DNA of 6,758 nt from Spirochaetae bacterium HGW-Spirochaetae-9. GTDB taxonomy: Bacteria; Spirochaetota; Spirochaetia; Treponematales; Rectinemataceae. The stretch spans positions 1 to 6,758 of the forward strand of contig PGXP01000097.1 in the NCBI GenBank assembly GCA_002839205.1, written 5' to 3'. A program made the translations under genes and the position numbers. Below, piece after piece: positions 2-6,758 of the stretch. Under the pieces are notes generated by a model. The model did not search any database, was not told where the DNA came from, and worked only from the letters and a program-made list of their open reading frames with translations. The stretch's first letter is position 1; every line of letters begins with the position of its first letter.

Positions 2-106
2 GTACGCGAGGGCGTTGAGGGCAAGGACGACGAGGACGACGAAGCAGAGGTCGCGCCGAAGCCCAAAGCCAAGGCGGAGACCAAGGACGACGAAGAAGAA
101 GAGTAG
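2..106 (+). CDS. C-terminal end of an unidentified protein with an acidic, Lys/Pro-containing tail (5' partial)
   Basis: An open frame enters from the left edge (first full codon at base 2) and ends at TAG 104-106. Only 34 residues are visible. They begin VREGVEGKDDEDDEAE, pass through a short Pro/Lys/Ala stretch (APKPKAKAE) and end in TKDDEEEE. This is a low-complexity, mostly disordered, strongly negative tail of the kind found at the ends of several unrelated bacterial proteins (chaperones, RNA-polymerase-associated and ribosome-associated proteins), so the family cannot be named. It is treated as real because the frame is open from the edge, the composition is non-random, and the stop is followed by a promoter-like intergenic region leading to greA. 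A chance frame through GA-rich DNA cannot be fully excluded. Confidence 0.55.
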   Translation, partial: VREGVEGKDDEDDEAEVAPKPKAKAETKDDEEEE

Positions 107-199: not shown

Positions 200-208
200 T
201 CCGTTAGT

Positions 209-240
209 CCACGGGGTGCCGAGCAGTGCTCGGCGCGTGG
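209..240 (+). promoter_or_regulatory. Second extended hairpin in the greA leader
   Basis: GCCGAGC (218-224) and GCTCGGC (228-234) form a perfect 7-bp stem with an AGT loop. Outside an asymmetric internal loop (214-217 against 235), CCACG (209-213) pairs with CGTGG (236-240). The structure ends 10 nt upstream of the GGAG ribosome-binding site. It follows the 176-199 hairpin closely, so the whole leader appears strongly folded. The function is inferred only from position. Confidence 0.5.
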
Positions 241-264
241 CGACGTACCGGGAGTACACACCTG

Positions 265-666
265 ATGCATAAGGAAATCGCTCTCACAGCCGAAGGCCAG
301 ACACGTCTTGAAGAGGAGCTACGCCACCTCGAGACCGTCAAGCGACGCGAAGTAGGCGAGCGGATCAAGGAAGCCAAGGAGTTCGGCGACATCTCCGAGA
401 ACTCTGAATACGATGACGCCAAGAACGAGCAGGCCTGGGTTGAGAGCCGCATAGCAGAGATCAATCTCATCCTGGCGCATGCGACGTTGATCGAGTCTCC
501 CGCCAAGAGCGACAAAGTCGCCCTTGGCAGCAAGGTGCAGCTCCAGGATGCCGAGACCGGCGAGGCGCACACGTACCAGATCGTCGGTTCCGCTGAGGCG
601 GACCCGACCCACGATAGGATCTCCAACGAGTCTCCTGTGGGGCAGGCGATCATGGGCGCGAAGAAG
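265..666 (+). CDS. greA: GreA transcription elongation factor, truncated at its 3' end by a sequence junction
   Basis: GreA enters the secondary channel of RNA polymerase and stimulates cleavage of backtracked RNA. The N-terminal coiled coil is clear (about residues 10-76), with the tip sequence FGDISENSEYDDAKNEQ. The acidic pair D42 and E45 corresponds to D41/E44 of E. coli GreA. The C-terminal FKBP-like domain begins (VALGSKVQL, about 85-93) and reaches the family motif DRISNESPVG (117-126). After about residue 134 (base 666) the frame stays open to TAA at 850-852, but those residues are only the antisense of tctA. The last roughly 25 residues of a normal protein of about 158 residues are missing. 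The start chosen is ATG 265, with GGAG at 251-254 ten bases upstream. An in-frame ATG at 226 lies within the leader hairpin and would add 13 residues unlike the family. The product as written would lack its final beta strands. Confidence 0.93.
645..666. other. Junction between two unrelated sequences (greA/tctA), about 22 bp shared
   Basis: Going right, GreA homology persists through Gly-Ala-Lys-Lys ending at base 666. Going left on the minus strand, TctA homology persists through FFAPMIA ending at base 645. Within 645-666 both readings fit their families; outside it only one does. Two convergent genes both lose their 3' ends at the same short shared string. This points to a chimeric join, most likely from assembly, less likely from a real recombination. 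Confidence 0.8.
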
Positions 667-1043
667 ATGAGGCAGATCAGGCTGCCTATGCCACCTATGA
701 AGGAAGCGATGACAGCCCCGCCGAGCGCCTGTCCCGCGAGGCCTTTCTTCGTCATGAGAAGGCCATCCTCAACCGTGGCGATCGCGTTTGGATTGCCGGG
801 AATTCCAAGCAGAATCGCCGGGATGGACGCACCTGAAACCGCGCCGCAGTAAACGGCGAGCAGGAGCCCCATCCCGGCTGCGTTGGACAGCTGAAAACTG
901 ATAGGGAGCATGAGGGCGATGCCCATCGTCGCCGTGAGTCCGGGAAGGGCGCCGAGGATTATCCCCAGTACAGAACCGATGCAAATCCACGCGATAGTGC
1001 CGAAAGTGAAAACCTGCGAAACCGCAGAAGCCAGGATGTCCAT
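645..1043 (-). CDS. tctA: TctA, large membrane subunit of a tripartite tricarboxylate transporter (N-terminal 133 residues only)
   Basis: TctA is the roughly 500-residue channel-forming subunit (about 12 membrane helices) of TTT transporters, working with TctB and the binding protein TctC. Visible are the first hydrophobic segments, the family motif GALPGLTATMGIALMLP (31-47), the hydrophobic stretch around LLLAVYCGAVSGASIPAILLG (60-80), the motif GIPGNPNAIATVEDG (80-94; compare the usual N-x-PG-x-P-x-x-x-x-T-x-x-DG) and another helix ending FFAPMIA (127-133). From residue 134 the frame remains open to base 204 but translates the antisense of greA, so about 370 residues are missing. The ATG at 1043 has a GGGGGG ribosome site just upstream and starts 9 bp after the tctB stop, so it is the third gene of a tctCBA operon. 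The truncation coincides with the greA truncation and is probably not biological. Confidence 0.92.
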
Positions 1044-1052
1044 GCAGCCCCC

Positions 1053-1766
1053 CTACCAGGTGATGATGCCGCGCGCCAGGTTCACGAGGAACAGTTGCCT
1101 GAACACGAGGAAAAGGAATTCTACGCTGCCAGCCGTCACCAAGCTTATGACCGCAACCTTGCGAGACATCAATCCAGGTTTCATGCGGCGAACCATCTTG
1201 GCGGCAATGTAGAGAAGCAGTCCGAGCACCAGCATATTGGCCGAAAAAACGAAGAAGGGCGCCGAAGCAATGGTAAATGACGTTGTGCGTCCCACCTGTA
1301 AGAGGTATCGGGTCATGAATCTGCCCGCCGAATAGTAGCCGACAGTGAAAGCCAAGGTTCCTGCGAGGCCCGCGAAAAGCGGAGCCAGATTTTTCCGTAT
1401 CGCTGTATCCAGGGAAGCGATGAACGACAAGGAAAAAACGAGCAGTGTGGAAGTGATGATGAAGCCGAGTTTCGAGAAAAGAAGGACATAGAGAATTCCG
1501 GAACAGATGGCGAAGTAGAATTTGGCACCAGCCCGAGGAGCGGGTTCCGCTCTGCCGGGAGTCTTGTCCATGAAGAGCAGATAGAGCGCGCCAAGCATCA
1601 TGAATCCCGCAAGAAATGCGGGCAGGAGAAATCCGCCCGGATCACCGCCGATTTCATCGCCTATCATTTTCGAATTTCCCTGTGCAAGGATGTATGGAAA
1701 ATATGCCAGCGAAAATACGAGCATCGCGACGGGAACGGTTTTTCGGGATCCGGGTGATTTCATCAT
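1053..1766 (-). CDS. tctB: TctB-family small membrane subunit of the TTT transporter, enlarged
   Basis: TctB (DUF1468) is the small integral membrane partner of TctA. Typical members have about 145-180 residues and four helices; this one has 237. The N-terminal half follows the family: helix about 11-29, GDPGGFLLPAFLAGFMMLGALYLL (42-65; compare the usual G-P-G-x-x-P), a short charged loop rich in Pro and Ala (68-80), and helices about 82-99 and 101-118 with KLGFIITSTLLVF. Further hydrophobic segments lie at about 129-148, 166-190 and 204-226. The end FLVFRQLFLVNLARGI resembles the usual TctB terminus, so there appear to be about seven helices instead of four. The start is one of two adjacent ATGs (1766 or 1763) with GAGGA just upstream. 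It begins 13 bp after tctC and ends 9 bp before tctA, as expected for tctCBA. The identification rests on position and the N-terminal pattern. Confidence 0.85.
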   Translation of the reverse strand: MMKSPGSRKTVPVAMLVFSLAYFPYILAQGNSKMIGDEIGGDPGGFLLPAFLAGFMMLGALYLLFMDKTPGRAEPAPRAGAKFYFAICSGILYVLLFSKLGFIITSTLLVFSLSFIASLDTAIRKNLAPLFAGLAGTLAFTVGYYSAGRFMTRYLLQVGRTTSFTIASAPFFVFSANMLVLGLLLYIAAKMVRRMKPGLMSRKVAVISLVTAGSVEFLFLVFRQLFLVNLARGIITW

Positions 1767-1779
1767 TGCTTCCTCGCGC

Positions 1780-2760
1780 TTATTTCTTCTTGAGCAGGCC
1801 GGCTTCCTTCATGATGGGAAGGTAGTCTGCGACGATCTTGGCGTTGTAGGCATCGAGATCAGCCAACTTCGAAAACGCGGGGATGAGGCCGTTCTTCGCC
1901 ATGAATTTCTGGTAGCTTTCGGACATGAAAGCCTTTTCCGCCAGGTCGGCGAGGTATGCCTTGATGGCGGGGGGAGTGCCTTTCTTCACGGAAAGCGACT
2001 TGAATGATCCGCCTGGCACGTTAAGATCGGGATAGCCTGCGGCGGCGAGTGTGGGGATATAGGCCAGTTCGGCGAGCGAGCTCTTGTCGTCGCTGAGGAT
2101 GACGAGCGCCTTCATGCTCGCTTTGTTCGCCAGGAATTCGGATTGAGAAAAGATGCCCACGTCGCAGTGTCCGCCGAGCACAGAGGCTATAAGGTCGGCC
2201 CCGCCATTGAAGGGAGTCACATTGAAGCTTTTCCCGAAAGACAGGTTGATGCCCACGGAAGCGACGCCAGTGGCTCCGCCCATGCCCGCGTTGCCGAGGG
2301 AAATCTTGCCCGGGGTCGCCTTGGCGGCGGCAATGAGTTCCTTCATGTTGTTCCAGGGCTTCTTGCCATTGACCGCGACGATGAAGGGATCCCAGTTCAT
2401 GCCGATGATGCCTTCGAGCTCCGAATTGCCGGCCGTGAGGCCCTGGAGTTCAGCTGCGATCGTGTGCGTACCGCTTGCGAGCAGGGTGTAGCCGTCGGCC
2501 GCGCTGTTGATGACTTCATTCGCGCCTGTCGCGCTTCCTGCGCCGGCAACGTTGCTCACGATGAAGGAAGAACGGGCTATCCGCTTCATCTCCTCAACGA
2601 GGGGGCGGAAGGCCAGGTCGGTGCCGCCGCCGGCCGCGTGGGGCACGACGATAGTGACGGTCTTTTCGGGGTCAGGGAAGGGAAGGTCCTTCGCGGCAAT
2701 AGTGCCGACGAAACCGAAGGCCATAACTGACACAACGATGAGCGCAAGTGCCTTTTTCAC
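1780..2760 (-). CDS. tctC: TctC-type periplasmic substrate-binding protein of a tripartite tricarboxylate transporter
   Basis: This is a 326-residue extracytoplasmic binding protein of the TctC/Bug family, which delivers carboxylated ligands to TctAB. There is a Sec signal peptide (MKK, hydrophobic core 4-20, likely cleavage near A22-A23). The absence of a lipobox Cys suggests a soluble periplasmic protein. Family motifs are IVVPHAAGGGTDLAFR (37-52; the usual residue after VP is Phe, here His), NVAGAGSATGANEV (70-83), ADGYTLL (88-94) and YIPTLAAAGYPDL (234-246). Lobe 2 elements include GGHCDVGIFS (196-205). The start is GTG at 2758-2760 with AGGAGG five bases upstream. The ATG two bases further upstream is out of frame and immediately hits TGA. 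It is the first gene of tctCBA, with its own promoter. The ligand cannot be read from sequence; citrate is only the family's name-giver. The neighbours (isomerase, DeoR repressor) favour a sugar-derived acid, which is an inference. Confidence 0.95.
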   Translation of the reverse strand: MKKALALIVVSVMAFGFVGTIAAKDLPFPDPEKTVTIVVPHAAGGGTDLAFRPLVEEMKRIARSSFIVSNVAGAGSATGANEVINSAADGYTLLASGTHTIAAELQGLTAGNSELEGIIGMNWDPFIVAVNGKKPWNNMKELIAAAKATPGKISLGNAGMGGATGVASVGINLSFGKSFNVTPFNGGADLIASVLGGHCDVGIFSQSEFLANKASMKALVILSDDKSSLAELAYIPTLAAAGYPDLNVPGGSFKSLSVKKGTPPAIKAYLADLAEKAFMSESYQKFMAKNGLIPAFSKLADLDAYNAKIVADYLPIMKEAGLLKKK

Positions 2761-2788
2761 ATTTTCCTCCTGTGAATAGTATTGAACT

Positions 2789-2804
2789 CCCCGAGGTTTC
2801 GGGG
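2789..2804 (-). promoter_or_regulatory. Hairpin in the tctC leader
   Basis: CCCCGA (2789-2794) and TCGGGG (2799-2804) pair around a 4-nt loop. On the minus strand the hairpin lies between the predicted promoter (2826-2853) and the AGGAGG ribosome site of tctC, about 28 nt before the GTG. No U-tract follows it on the minus strand, so a leader or stability role is more likely than termination. On the plus strand it is followed by TTTCTCTT, but no plus-strand gene precedes it. Confidence 0.45.
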
Positions 2805-2823
2805 TTTCTCTTGGTTATCGGAG

Positions 2824-2853
2824 GCAGTATAGCATAAAAGAAAATAAAGGCAA
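2824..2853 (-). promoter_or_regulatory. Probable promoter of tctCBA with extended -10
   Basis: On the minus strand, TTGCCT (2853-2848) is followed by a 16-bp spacer and TATACT (2831-2826). TG precedes the -10 by one base (TGCTATACT, extended -10). A T-rich/A-rich tract with an A9 run on the plus strand (2855-2863) lies just upstream and could act as a curved or UP-like element. The start would fall near 2819, giving a leader of about 59 nt. The element ATGCTATACTGC (2835-2824) recurs at the deoR promoter with one mismatch. Confidence 0.65.
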
Positions 2854-2919
2854 GAAAAAAAAAGAAAAGAAACATCCTCTCTCTACTGTCTACGCTCAAC
2901 CCTGCCCGAGCAACTGCGG

Positions 2920-3867
2920 TCACGATCCAGAGAGGAGACTGCGAAGGAGAAGGTGATTACGCAGGGGTTCTTCGAGGAGTTCGAGCACGAGGTTGGCGCC
3001 GGAAGGAGCGAGCGCCTCAAGCACCTTGCCGATCGGAAAACTGTTGCGGTCGATGCTGTGATGGTCGTCGCGGAATCGGGCCGGACTTGAGCTGTTGCTG
3101 TGCAGGTGACAGGTGAGCACCTTCCCTGTGGCGACTATAGCACGGAGCCCTTCGATGTAATCGAATCCGTAGGCGAAGGAGGATATGTACAGATGGCCGA
3201 CATCAAGGCAGATGCCGAGATTCGGATGGAGCGATGCAATTTCGACCATCTCGTCGGGTGTATGGAAGAGATAGCCGACCCTGGGGTTGAGGTTCTCCGC
3301 CGCGACTTCGACTCCTTCGCGCGCGTACAGCGCGGCGAGCGTGATGAGATTTTCCTTGGCCCGAGCCGCATGACGCATGTATTTCCCGGTCCTGTTGTAG
3401 TCAGGACCACAGATCGCTCCATCGGCATGCCGGATGTCTTCGGCGAATTCCTGCCGAGCCAGCAAAGCGCTTCTTTCCTTGAACAATGCCGACATCGGGC
3501 TGTCGGTAACGTAGCCTGCGTGGAGCACGACTATGCTCGCCCCGAAGCGGCGGGCCGTCGCTAGCGTGGCTTTCATGTCGGAAAAGGATTCGGCGATCAC
3601 GGCCGGATCGGCGCTCGCGAAATTGGGAAAATTCCTCGTGGCGGGGCAGCATGCGTGAAGGGATGGAACGCGTCCCGTGATGAGGGGTTCGAGCTCGTCG
3701 AGGAATTCGGGCGACATCGTGTATGAAAGCTCGAAACGGGCGGCATCGCGCGCACCTACAGGCTCGAGACCTGAAAGATAGTTGGATACCTCGGCTTTCG
3801 AGTTCATGACGACGAGGGACATCACAGGCTCGTGCTCCAGCATGCCGGAGCCTTTGTGCGCTTTCAT
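2920..3867 (-). CDS. TIM-barrel sugar-phosphate isomerase/epimerase-like protein (AP endonuclease 2 / xylose isomerase-like family)
   Basis: The protein has 315 residues from ATG 3867 (7 bp after the deoR stop). An alternative start, ATG 3843, has AAAGG upstream and gives 307 residues. The frame extends further upstream inside deoR, but that part is an antiparallel-frame shadow without homology. The pattern is a beta/alpha barrel with metal ligands on strand ends: H71 (SLHACCP), H116 (VVLHAGY), E191 (VAAENLNP), D222 and H225 (LDVGH), H254 or H256 (TCHLHSN), D268 and H270 (RDDHHS), and E296 (LVLELLEE). These line up in order with the nine ligands of endonuclease IV. Family members in sugar loci usually isomerise or epimerise ketoses, keto-acids or inositol derivatives. 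DNA repair is less likely given that the gene sits between a DeoR regulator and a TTT operon. The substrate is unknown. Co-transcription with deoR is likely. Confidence 0.85.
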   Translation of the reverse strand: MKAHKGSGMLEHEPVMSLVVMNSKAEVSNYLSGLEPVGARDAARFELSYTMSPEFLDELEPLITGRVPSLHACCPATRNFPNFASADPAVIAESFSDMKATLATARRFGASIVVLHAGYVTDSPMSALFKERSALLARQEFAEDIRHADGAICGPDYNRTGKYMRHAARAKENLITLAALYAREGVEVAAENLNPRVGYLFHTPDEMVEIASLHPNLGICLDVGHLYISSFAYGFDYIEGLRAIVATGKVLTCHLHSNSSSPARFRDDHHSIDRNSFPIGKVLEALAPSGANLVLELLEEPLRNHLLLRSLLSGS

Positions 3868-3874
3868 GCCGGGC

Positions 3875-4630
3875 TCACGCGATGATGATCTGGACGCCAT
3901 GGGCTTCAAGACTGCCGCGAGTCTCAGGGTCGATGGCATCGGTGATGAGGATGTCGATCGAGTCCCAATCGCAGATTTTCGCAAGGGAAACCTTGCCGAA
4001 CTTCGAGGAGTCGACGAGGAGGCAGACCTTGGTCACGCTCCGGATCATGGCCTTTTTAGTGTCGGCTTCTATGATGTTATTGCAGGTGATACCCTGGTCC
4101 GCTGTGACGCTGGAAGCGCCGAGAAAGAGCAGATCTCCGCGCACTTCCTCGATACTGTGCCGCGCATGGACGCCCATGAGGGACATCGAAGGCCGCCTCA
4201 ATAGTCCTCCCGCCACAATGAGCTGGACCTGCTCTGCGCCCATGAGTTTCTGGACAACGAGCACCGAATTGGTGATGACCGTGATAGGCAATTCGGAGAC
4301 CAGAGGGGCCAGGTGGACGGTCGTGCTGCCCGAATCTATGATGATGATCTGCCCAGGCTCCACCATCTTGGCGGCCGCTTCGCAGATCCGCCGCTTTCGA
4401 TCGCTGTTTTCGTTGAGCGTATTACTCACAAGCCTCACAAAGTTCCGCTTTTCCGCGAGCACCGCGCCTCCGTGGGTGCGCACCAGCAGCCCCTTGGCTT
4501 CCAAGTCGTCCAGGTCGTTGCGTGCCGTCACTTTCGATATGCCGAAGAGCTTCGTCAGCTCCACCACTTCGATCGACTCTTTCTTGTCGAGCATCTCCAT
4601 GATGCGCCGCTTGCGCTCGAATGCGTTCAT
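3875..4630 (-). CDS. DeoR/GlpR-family transcriptional repressor
   Basis: The 251-residue length is standard for the family. The N-terminal winged helix-turn-helix shows the DeoR signature: ERKRRIMEMLDKKESI (5-20), then VELTKLFGISKVTARNDLDD (23-42), LEAKGLLVRTHGGAV (43-57). The C-terminal DeoRC sensor domain (about 75-230) carries the phosphosugar-binding motifs IIDSGSTT (97-104), ITNSV (119-123), VAGGLLR (139-145), FLGASSV (169-175) with GIT (180-182), and LVDSSKFGK (205-213). Family members normally repress adjacent sugar catabolic genes and are released by a phosphorylated intermediate. ATG 4630 is preceded by a weak purine-rich site (AAGGCGGCGGGA), and a promoter lies at about 4685-4693. 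It likely represses its own transcript with the downstream isomerase, and perhaps tctCBA, whose promoter shares a 12-bp element. The effector is unknown. Confidence 0.95.
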   Translation of the reverse strand: MNAFERKRRIMEMLDKKESIEVVELTKLFGISKVTARNDLDDLEAKGLLVRTHGGAVLAEKRNFVRLVSNTLNENSDRKRRICEAAAKMVEPGQIIIIDSGSTTVHLAPLVSELPITVITNSVLVVQKLMGAEQVQLIVAGGLLRRPSMSLMGVHARHSIEEVRGDLLFLGASSVTADQGITCNNIIEADTKKAMIRSVTKVCLLVDSSKFGKVSLAKICDWDSIDILITDAIDPETRGSLEAHGVQIIIA

Positions 4631-4663
4631 TCCCGCCGCCTTGTCCGAAAAATTTGCCTATTC

Positions 4664-4684
4664 TTTCGTTTTCCTTCCTTTTGC
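4664..4684 (+). promoter_or_regulatory. Candidate DeoR-type operator over the deoR start site
   Basis: On the plus strand a pyrimidine tract of short TTTC/TTCC-like repeats (TTTCGTTTTCC then TTCCTTTTGC) covers the predicted deoR transcription start. Several DeoR-family regulators bind TTTC-containing direct repeats, so this would suit autorepression. A comparable TTTC-rich tract lies on the minus strand around the tctC promoter (2836-2872). The assignment is by position and composition only. Confidence 0.3.
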
Positions 4685-4694
4685 ACTATAGCAT
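4683..4694 (-). promoter_or_regulatory. Extended -10 promoter of deoR and isomerase
   Basis: On the minus strand TGCTATAGT (4693-4685) is an extended -10 with TATAGT at 4690-4685. No convincing -35 is seen 16-18 bp upstream (TGTATC is the best), which is common for extended -10 promoters. Transcription would start near 4678, giving a leader of about 48 nt. The 12-mer ATGCTATAGTGC matches the tctC promoter element at 11 of 12 positions. Confidence 0.55.
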
Positions 4695-4759
4695 GGCTTC
4701 GAGGAAAGATACAGGAAGAACGATCCTGGGCTTCCGGCAGGAGTGTAGAGGCATATGGT

Positions 4760-6067
4760 TCAGTTGCCTGCAATCTCGTCAGCGTGCCCGAAAACCTTCC
4801 GGAAAGCCTCCACATAGCGGTCGATCGCCGCGCGGTCGGGATGCTTGAACCATGGCACGCTGAAGGAGTGATCCGTTATCCCTTCGGCGCGAGGCAGGCT
4901 GCCTCTTGCCTGCCTGAGGTCGCGCGAGGCAAAGGTCACCTGGGTCGGGGTCCCGAGTCCGAATATGTCGAGCTCGTTGAAATAGGGGTGAAGATGCAAC
5001 GGGCCATTCTTGCAGGGAGCGCAGGCTCCCGCTCCTTCGGCCCGCAGGGCGGCGCAGATCTTCGCGAGGGATCCTGGCGGCAACCCTCTTTCATCGAAAA
5101 GCCCCTGGGCGTAGTACCAGCCGCCCATGCATGAACCATCGGCCTTGGAAATCCTGTGCGCCGAGAGCCTCGGCGTTCCCTCCAGGGAATCCCAGAAATA
5201 GCTCATCGCTTCATCGATTTCAGCGATACGCTCGTCATAGTGCTTGAGCTGTTCCAGCCCGACGGCGGAACTCATCTGGTGCATCCGGTGCTTGCATGCG
5301 CCTGCGGGGATGCCGGCGAACTTCATCAGCTCGGGTTCGGTGAGCTGGTTGTCGGGCGAGAAAAATTCAGAGCCTGTCCCTGTGCGCTCGTAGAAGGAGT
5401 AGGAGATGCAGCGCTCATAGAGATGGCGATCATTGGTGAATACCATGCCGCCCTCGCCGATGGCGAATGCCTTGGCAGTCATCAGGCTCATGATGGATAT
5501 GTCGCCGAAAGTGCCGCAGGCCTTACCTTTGTACAGGCTGCCCTGGGCGTGGGAAGCGTCCTCGATCACCAGAAGACCGTGCTTGCGGGCTAGGGGGAGA
5601 ATGCGATCCATGTCGCAGGGATGGGCGGCGTAGTGGACAACCATGATGGCTTTGGTGCGCGGTCCGATGCGGTGTTCAATGTCTTCCGGATCTATGCAAA
5701 GTGTCGTGGCGTCGATGTCGGCGAAATTGACGGCGCCGCCCAGGCTGAGCACGGGCGCGGCGCTCGCCCAGTAGGTCACCGAGGGGCAGATCACCTCATC
5801 ACCCGCGCCGATGCCGCAGGCCCAAAGCGCGGAGAGTATGCCGGCGGTGCCGTTGCAGTAGCCGAGTGCGTACTTCACGCCGAGCCATTCGGCCATTTCC
5901 CTTTCGAAGCGCTTCGTGATTTCCGTACCGCTCATGCTGCGGTTGCGCAGAACAGAGAGCACCGCCTGCTCATCAGCCTCGGTTATGATCGGCCAGAGGA
6001 AAAGGTCGCGGGGCTCTTCGCCCACCGCGGCCGGACCGCCATGTATCGCCAAAACATCCTTGTTCAT
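4760..6067 (-). CDS. DegT/DnrJ/EryC1/StrS-family PLP-dependent aminotransferase
   Basis: This is a fold-type I aminotransferase that transfers an amino group, usually from Glu or Gln, to a keto-sugar or keto-cyclitol. At 435 residues it is longer than the usual 370-400. Visible elements are LAIHGGPAA (6-14), SGTEITKRFEREMAEWLGVKYALGYCNGTAG (46-76; cofactor phosphate region), GDEVICPSVTYWAS (89-102), VIEDASHAQGS (167-177) with D170 binding the PLP ring nitrogen and H173 nearby, and SLMTAKAFAIGEGG (194-207) with K199 as the Schiff-base lysine. The C-terminal domain has GPLHLHPYFNELDIFG (355-370). The opening and overall layout resemble the scyllo-inosose/2-deoxy-scyllo-inosose aminotransferase branch, but substrate assignment is not safe. 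ATG 6067 has AAGGAGG upstream and overlaps the stop of the preceding gene (ATGA), so the two are translationally coupled. With no antibiotic or polysaccharide genes nearby, a catabolic role on an amino- or keto-sugar/cyclitol is plausible. Confidence 0.93.
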   Translation of the reverse strand: MNKDVLAIHGGPAAVGEEPRDLFLWPIITEADEQAVLSVLRNRSMSGTEITKRFEREMAEWLGVKYALGYCNGTAGILSALWACGIGAGDEVICPSVTYWASAAPVLSLGGAVNFADIDATTLCIDPEDIEHRIGPRTKAIMVVHYAAHPCDMDRILPLARKHGLLVIEDASHAQGSLYKGKACGTFGDISIMSLMTAKAFAIGEGGMVFTNDRHLYERCISYSFYERTGTGSEFFSPDNQLTEPELMKFAGIPAGACKHRMHQMSSAVGLEQLKHYDERIAEIDEAMSYFWDSLEGTPRLSAHRISKADGSCMGGWYYAQGLFDERGLPPGSLAKICAALRAEGAGACAPCKNGPLHLHPYFNELDIFGLGTPTQVTFASRDLRQARGSLPRAEGITDHSFSVPWFKHPDRAAIDRYVEAFRKVFGHADEIAGN

Positions 6068-6758
6068 ATCGCCTCCTTGCGCAGCTCGTCATAGAGGGTT
6101 GGTATCATTGTTTCAAGGCTCCCGGAAAGAGGAGCAGGCCTGCCATAGAACATGAAAGCGCGCTCCACTTCGTAGCCTCCCTGAGAAAAAGCGGCTTCGG
6201 TCGGCATGTATCCCACAGAACCGCCGCAGTAGCCGCATACGAAAAGCCGAGAAGGTCTGGCGGATGCCTTGAGCCCAAGCCCTATCCGGGAAAAAGCTTC
6301 CCCTGGCAGCGAAAAGAACTGCATTGAAGGGCCAAGACTCGAGCCCAATTCGCAGAAGCTGAAGCGCGCGGGTTCCGAAGGCGGTCCGCTATAGCATCCT
6401 TCTTCATCGAAGCTGGTTTCCAGCATTTTATCGGCCCAGGCTGACAAAGCCTCCGTACCGAGAGCGGGATTGTCGTGCGTCCCGGCGAAGCTGCTTTGTG
6501 CCGGATCACCTTCCCGCACAGCAGCCAACTGATTCCGAAACCTGCTCACCTTTTCTTTCGATAAAGCTTCGGCGTACGGCAGCGCCACTACCCTCGATAC
6601 GCTGCGCACACCGATCCCGTCCAGCCAGGCAAAGGAGCCCGAGGTCGGCGCGGCCTGAGCGGCCGATGCGGACCGCGCGCCCCGAATCACCGCTTCGGCC
6701 ACAGCCTGTCCCATCCTCTCGATATCGGCCGCATCGCCTTCGACGAAAGCTTCGCCGG
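6064..6758 (-). CDS. Neutral/alkaline non-lysosomal ceramidase-like protein (C-terminal 230 residues; 5' end beyond window)
   Basis: The frame is open to the right edge. An ATG exists at 6714, but the residues before it (GEAFVEGDAADIERMGQAVA) continue the family pattern, so 6714 is internal and the gene is partial. Family hallmarks near the end are FFSLPGEAFSRIGLGLKA (visible residues about 147-164) and GYCGGSVGYMPTEAAFSQGGYEVE (about 175-198), followed by a helix LETMIPTLYDEL. In neutral ceramidases these belong to the N-terminal Zn-hydrolase domain (PF04734). The zinc-binding His residues would lie in the missing part. Small bacterial members of about 400-450 residues are mostly uncharacterised and often sit in sugar catabolic loci, where a ceramide substrate is unlikely; an amide or other hydrolase activity is a guess. 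The stop overlaps the aminotransferase start by 4 bp, showing a tight operon. Confidence 0.8.
   Translation of the reverse strand, partial: GEAFVEGDAADIERMGQAVAEAVIRGARSASAAQAAPTSGSFAWLDGIGVRSVSRVVALPYAEALSKEKVSRFRNQLAAVREGDPAQSSFAGTHDNPALGTEALSAWADKMLETSFDEEGCYSGPPSEPARFSFCELGSSLGPSMQFFSLPGEAFSRIGLGLKASARPSRLFVCGYCGGSVGYMPTEAAFSQGGYEVERAFMFYGRPAPLSGSLETMIPTLYDELRKEAI

Follow-up and report, generated by a model that had tools for sequence, protein, structure and literature searches.

Why do greA and tctA, two genes on opposite strands, both break off at the same place, and does their meeting reflect the biology of one organism or a join between two? The window, that is, the whole stretch of 6,758 nucleotides analysed here, carries near its left end a plus-strand frame (226-852, 208 aa from a GTG, or 195 aa counted from the GreA ATG at 265) and a minus-strand frame (1043-204, 279 aa, the TctA frame), which run through each other on opposite strands (Table 1). 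An earlier note had described the two genes as fused tail to tail at an ambiguous junction of 22 bp, with each frame continuing beyond it only as the antisense of the other gene, and had proposed a false join of two genomes. The description held, and the reading proposed for it is well supported. The GreA and TctA homologies overlap by 22 bases, at 645-666 (GGCGATCATGGGCGCGAAGAAG), and the frames of 208 and 279 residues are artificial, each running past the junction as antisense of its partner. We consider it highly probable that the contig is an inter-phylum chimera, joined in assembly at a k-mer that two genomes would have in common by chance.

Table 1. Features of the window, with the evidence for each.
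Feature	Position	Strand	Evidence or remark
Possible tatA C-terminal end, gene upstream of greA	2..106	+	34-aa acidic stub; TAG at 104-106
greA residues 1-134, 3' end lost at seam; Coriobacteriia-like	265..666	+	PF03449, PF01272; P0001 133/134
Ambiguous 22-bp junction, reads as GreA (+) and TctA (-)	645..666	.	Placed from protein-level comparison
tctA, first 133 of about 505 residues, truncated 3' at seam; spirochaetal	645..1043	-	P0158, 96.2%
Artificial tail of GreA frame (tctA antisense)	667..852	+	Inside tctA on opposite strand
Artificial tail of TctA frame (antisense to greA plus leader)	204..644	-	P0158 local alignment stops at residue 133
tctB	1053..1766	-	PF07331, E 5.1e-7
tctC, substrate-binding subunit	1780..2760	-	PF03401; 66% identity to Sphaerochaeta locus L001
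TIM-barrel isomerase/endonuclease-like protein	2920..3984	-	PF01261
DeoR-family regulator	3875..4630	-	PF00455, PF08220
DegT/DnrJ/EryC1/StrS aminotransferase	4760..6067	-	PF01041
Partial ORF, runs off right end	6067-6756	-	No Pfam family above cut-off

Origin of the greA side

The plus-strand frame from the ATG at 265 encodes GreA, a transcription elongation factor, as recognized by Pfam (PF03449 and PF01272) and by an NCBIfam match. The closest relative found, P0001 (157 aa), agrees with the window at 133 of the first 134 residues; past the seam it proceeds to a normal 23-residue end, reading GETVKVPTP where the window reads MRQIRLPMP. Using only window residues 1-134 as the query, we obtained alignments over this full length with all 120 relatives listed, in agreement with the earlier note, which had judged GreA to be family-like through base 666. 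The residue that follows is glycine in 119 of these relatives and serine in one, against methionine in the window, and the number of further residues after position 134 is 22-24 in 118 of them (7 and 16 in the remaining two). Scattered matches aside, the window frame leaves all nine aligned relatives after residue 134. Compared with known GreA, the window has the N-terminal domain and the larger part of the C-terminal one, but lacks the final 23 residues of P0001, in whose place the antisense of tctA stands. The GreA domains are incomplete, with the PF01272 match reaching position 63 of 77 and the agreement with P0001 ending at residue 134 of 157.

The profile matches themselves overshoot the seam by 8-12 residues, to residue 142 (Pfam) and to residues 143-146 (NCBIfam). 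This longer homology was set aside, since the near-identical P0001 departs after residue 134; we placed the end of GreA at this residue because the residue-by-residue comparison with P0001 shows it, and not the profiles.

An organism name is attached to 12 of the 120 listed GreA relatives, namely seven Coriobacteriia, two Actinomycetota, one Anaerosomatales (within Actinomycetota) and two given as "bacterium"; all ten informative names are actinobacterial. A search was also made in 392 genomes from Spirochaetota, the phylum to which Sphaerochaeta G001 (the genome of locus L001) belongs; a Rectinemataceae genome is not known to be included in this set. The best-scoring GreA in these genomes was only 38% identical (377 of the 392 with a match), and no GreA-like match was found in G001 itself. 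Judged by the encoded protein, the source of the left part up to the seam would most likely be an actinobacterium of the Coriobacteriia/Anaerosomatales kind.

Upstream of greA, the 34-aa stub aligns with Collinsella TatA (VREGVEGKDD against IREGMEGDD). This similarity is weak alone, as equally high scores came from 10 of 500 shuffled versions of the stub; the gene order in Collinsella, a coriobacterium, is tatA-greA-lysS. Comparison of positions 1-667 with plasmid records gave three weak partial matches, one of them Collinsella greA, and was used for gene order only. The stub is possibly the C terminus of TatA, which would place it with the actinobacterial side. The plus-strand tail at 2-106 is highly acidic and internally repetitive, with four copies of a 26-nt unit that are 69-100% alike.

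Origin of the tctA side

On the minus strand, the Pfam match to TctA covers residues 17-133, that is, to base 645, and the local alignment with the closest relative found, P0158 (505 aa, from a Rectinemataceae bacterium), also stops at residue 133, the point at which the earlier note had ended its likeness to the family. P0158 is 96.2% identical over 133 residues and then continues normally, and P0155 and P0165, of 505 aa each, are 95.5% and 94.0% identical over 133 residues. No full-length TctA permease (about 500 residues) is present, profile positions 1-117 of 423 being matched. With respect to known TctA, the large membrane subunit of tripartite tricarboxylate transporters, the window retains the first 133 residues, beside tctB and tctC in the order of spirochaete loci, but about 370 residues are absent and the antisense of greA takes their place. 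The motif FFAPMIA is followed by R in the three relatives at 94-96% identity and by C in the window. The match reaches residue 133 in 75 of 80 fetched TctA loci, and with the five loci that do not reach it omitted, the next codon begins with A, C or G in 75 of 75, against T in the window. Some alignments go beyond the seam: those with P0125, P0146 and P0136 by three residues, to 136, and those with P0219 and P0236, in gapped form, to residue 207-211 of the 279-aa frame. We rejected these extensions as chance, given that the alignment with P0158, the closest relative, goes no further than 133.

Eight spirochaetes, one member of candidate division KSB3 and one Amygdalobacter make up the ten organism-named entries among the 120 TctA relatives listed. 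A genome scan for TctA confirmed 191 places, of which the best 80 were retained; within these best 80 of 191, ranking by E-value put Sphaerochaeta and Sphaerochaetaceae in the first two places and Atribacterota third, and the top identity belonged to an Oscillibacter locus (84% over TctA residues 16-133), above any Sphaerochaeta locus. TctA has relatives in other phyla and therefore is not, alone, a clean phylum marker. Across the same 392 spirochaete-phylum genomes the top TctA identity was 80% (82 of 392 with a match) and, among the 33 that had a DNA match to the right side, the longest such match was 69% identical; a near-identical genome for the right side was not found among them.

Scoring all genes of the window together brought spirochaetal loci to the top; among the best 30 of the 80 loci, these keep tctC-tctB-tctA, and a DeoR regulator or a TIM-barrel protein frequently lies close by. 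The Sphaerochaeta locus L001 has tctC-tctB-tctA in the same order as the window. Relatives of the TIM-barrel protein lie near tctCBA in loci L001, L007, L008 and L021, and relatives of the DeoR regulator in L007, L008, L021 and others. The position of these two genes beside tctCBA, and of their relatives near tctA in other loci, suggests a conserved uptake operon. Farther right, the closest relatives of the aminotransferase are 91% and 87% identical, and the first one with an organism name (72%) belongs to Spirochaetota; at lower identity the named relatives are spirochaetes, KSB3, Armatimonadota, Lentisphaerae and Planctomycetota. We infer a single source for 667-6758, an assignment that covers the genes up to the last partial one (6067-6756). 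From the seam to the end, this source would most likely be a spirochaete close to Rectinemataceae, a family of Spirochaetota.

The 22-base seam and its likely cause

Read on the plus strand, as greA, the seam word encodes AIMGAKK; its complement, read as tctA, encodes FFAPMIA. In both proteins the window matches the closest relatives within 645-666 and differs from them immediately outside, on each side, confirming the claim that the overlap reads sensibly in both frames. This protein comparison suggests that the 22 bases would be identical in both parents. Two random genomes of 3 Mb are expected to have 1.0 (50% GC) to 2.4 (60% GC) exact 22-mers in common, and in a simulation of 12 such pairs 0-4 common 22-mers were found in each. 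The length of the seam equals k+1 for k=21. At this k, a de Bruijn graph needs a stretch of 22 common bases to merge a pair of genomes along a single edge. One 22-base word would thus have been common, by chance, to an actinobacterial and a spirochaetal genome; the graph would have merged both at that word, and low coverage of the true branches could have let the path exit one genome and enter the other. We infer that the assembler rather than the library made the join, and that the value of k was 21.

For de Bruijn graph assemblers, chimeric contigs or nodes arising from k-mers common to different genomes are described in a review (PMC7299287) and in a method paper (PMC8171044). The window resembles such interspecies chimeras in combining two sources, with a single break point for both genes and a short, doubly read seam. 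It differs in that those descriptions in PMC7299287 and PMC8171044 stress stretches common to related species, together with sequencing errors, whereas the window joins different phyla at a coincidental-looking word.

Searching the two sides separately, as the earlier note had advised, pointed to a different phylum for each, Actinomycetota/Coriobacteriia for the left and Spirochaetota for the right, and both cut genes are intact in close relatives (P0001, 157 aa; P0158, 505 aa), with near-identical copies in other assemblies, so that the proposed false join of two genomes is supported. The broken greA and tctA at the seam are most likely a sequencing or assembly artefact and not biology. We hold an assembly chimera to be highly probable despite the contrary results, namely the profile overshoot and the presence of TctA in other phyla, because the near-identical GreA and the 96% identical TctA carry the argument.

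A chimera made at the bench would leave identical anatomy: template switching at the common 22 bases, in library PCR or whole-genome amplification, is also expected to show a short common stretch at the seam, and the chimeric read passed on by the assembler would then be real. Such reads, however, usually occur at low frequency and normally lose to the correct path, and a seam of k+1 bases suits the assembler better than a library chimera; we regard a bench origin as unlikely. Neither would an inversion or deletion inside one genome, although a single rearrangement could join genes tail to tail, account for two sides that belong to different phyla, with GreA at 38% at best in the spirochaete-phylum genomes (Rectinemataceae not known among them) against 133 of 134 residues in P0001, and we hold it to be extremely improbable.

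Natural illegitimate recombination across phyla at a chance identity of 22 bp, bringing a spirochaetal tct operon into a coriobacterial greA (or the reverse) and truncating both genes, appears very unlikely to us. Short identities can guide such recombination, tct genes of this kind are found across several phyla and so do move, and the sequence alone forbids nothing. Against it, the 3' ends of both genes are missing from a single point onwards, and the near-identical copies of greA and tctA continue normally elsewhere. Positions 1-1700 hold no repeats of note, and none that marks a mobile element, and no transposase or integrase family was found among the nine window proteins scanned with Pfam. 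Moreover, the join has no second copy among the 120 listed GreA relatives, whose coverage of the 195-aa frame never exceeds 75%, and the exact 36-base junction pattern is absent from viral_contigs, which is a weak place to look.

An assembly chimera of this kind matters as a warning and not as biology. On the strength of the contig, an actinobacterium would wrongly be credited with a tricarboxylate transporter operon, or a spirochaete with a Coriobacteriia-like greA, and databases would gain two false proteins, one of 208 and one of 279 residues. The contig also illustrates that any two random genomes of 3 Mb can be expected to offer about one or two possible seams of 22 bases.

Several minor observations concern the window. 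The step in composition at the seam that the earlier note had suggested looking for did not appear: GC is 0.60-0.62 in 500-base windows spanning the seam and 0.52-0.63 farther right, and composition was dropped as uninformative. Promoter-like and terminator-like sites in 1-1100 exceed those in shuffles (2 versus 0.3 and 4 versus 0.9); they include, within tctA, a minus-strand hairpin (687-670) that resembles a terminator, and we accorded them no weight. For the partial ORF at the right end, the sole Pfam matches, Cecropin and MtrA, fall below the cut-off, and the product may resemble neutral ceramidase-like proteins in their C-terminal part. Relatives of the TIM-barrel protein and the DeoR regulator both occur near tctA, in differing gene order, in loci L007, L008, L012 and L021. 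The true start of the TIM-barrel gene is probably downstream of the start of its ORF.
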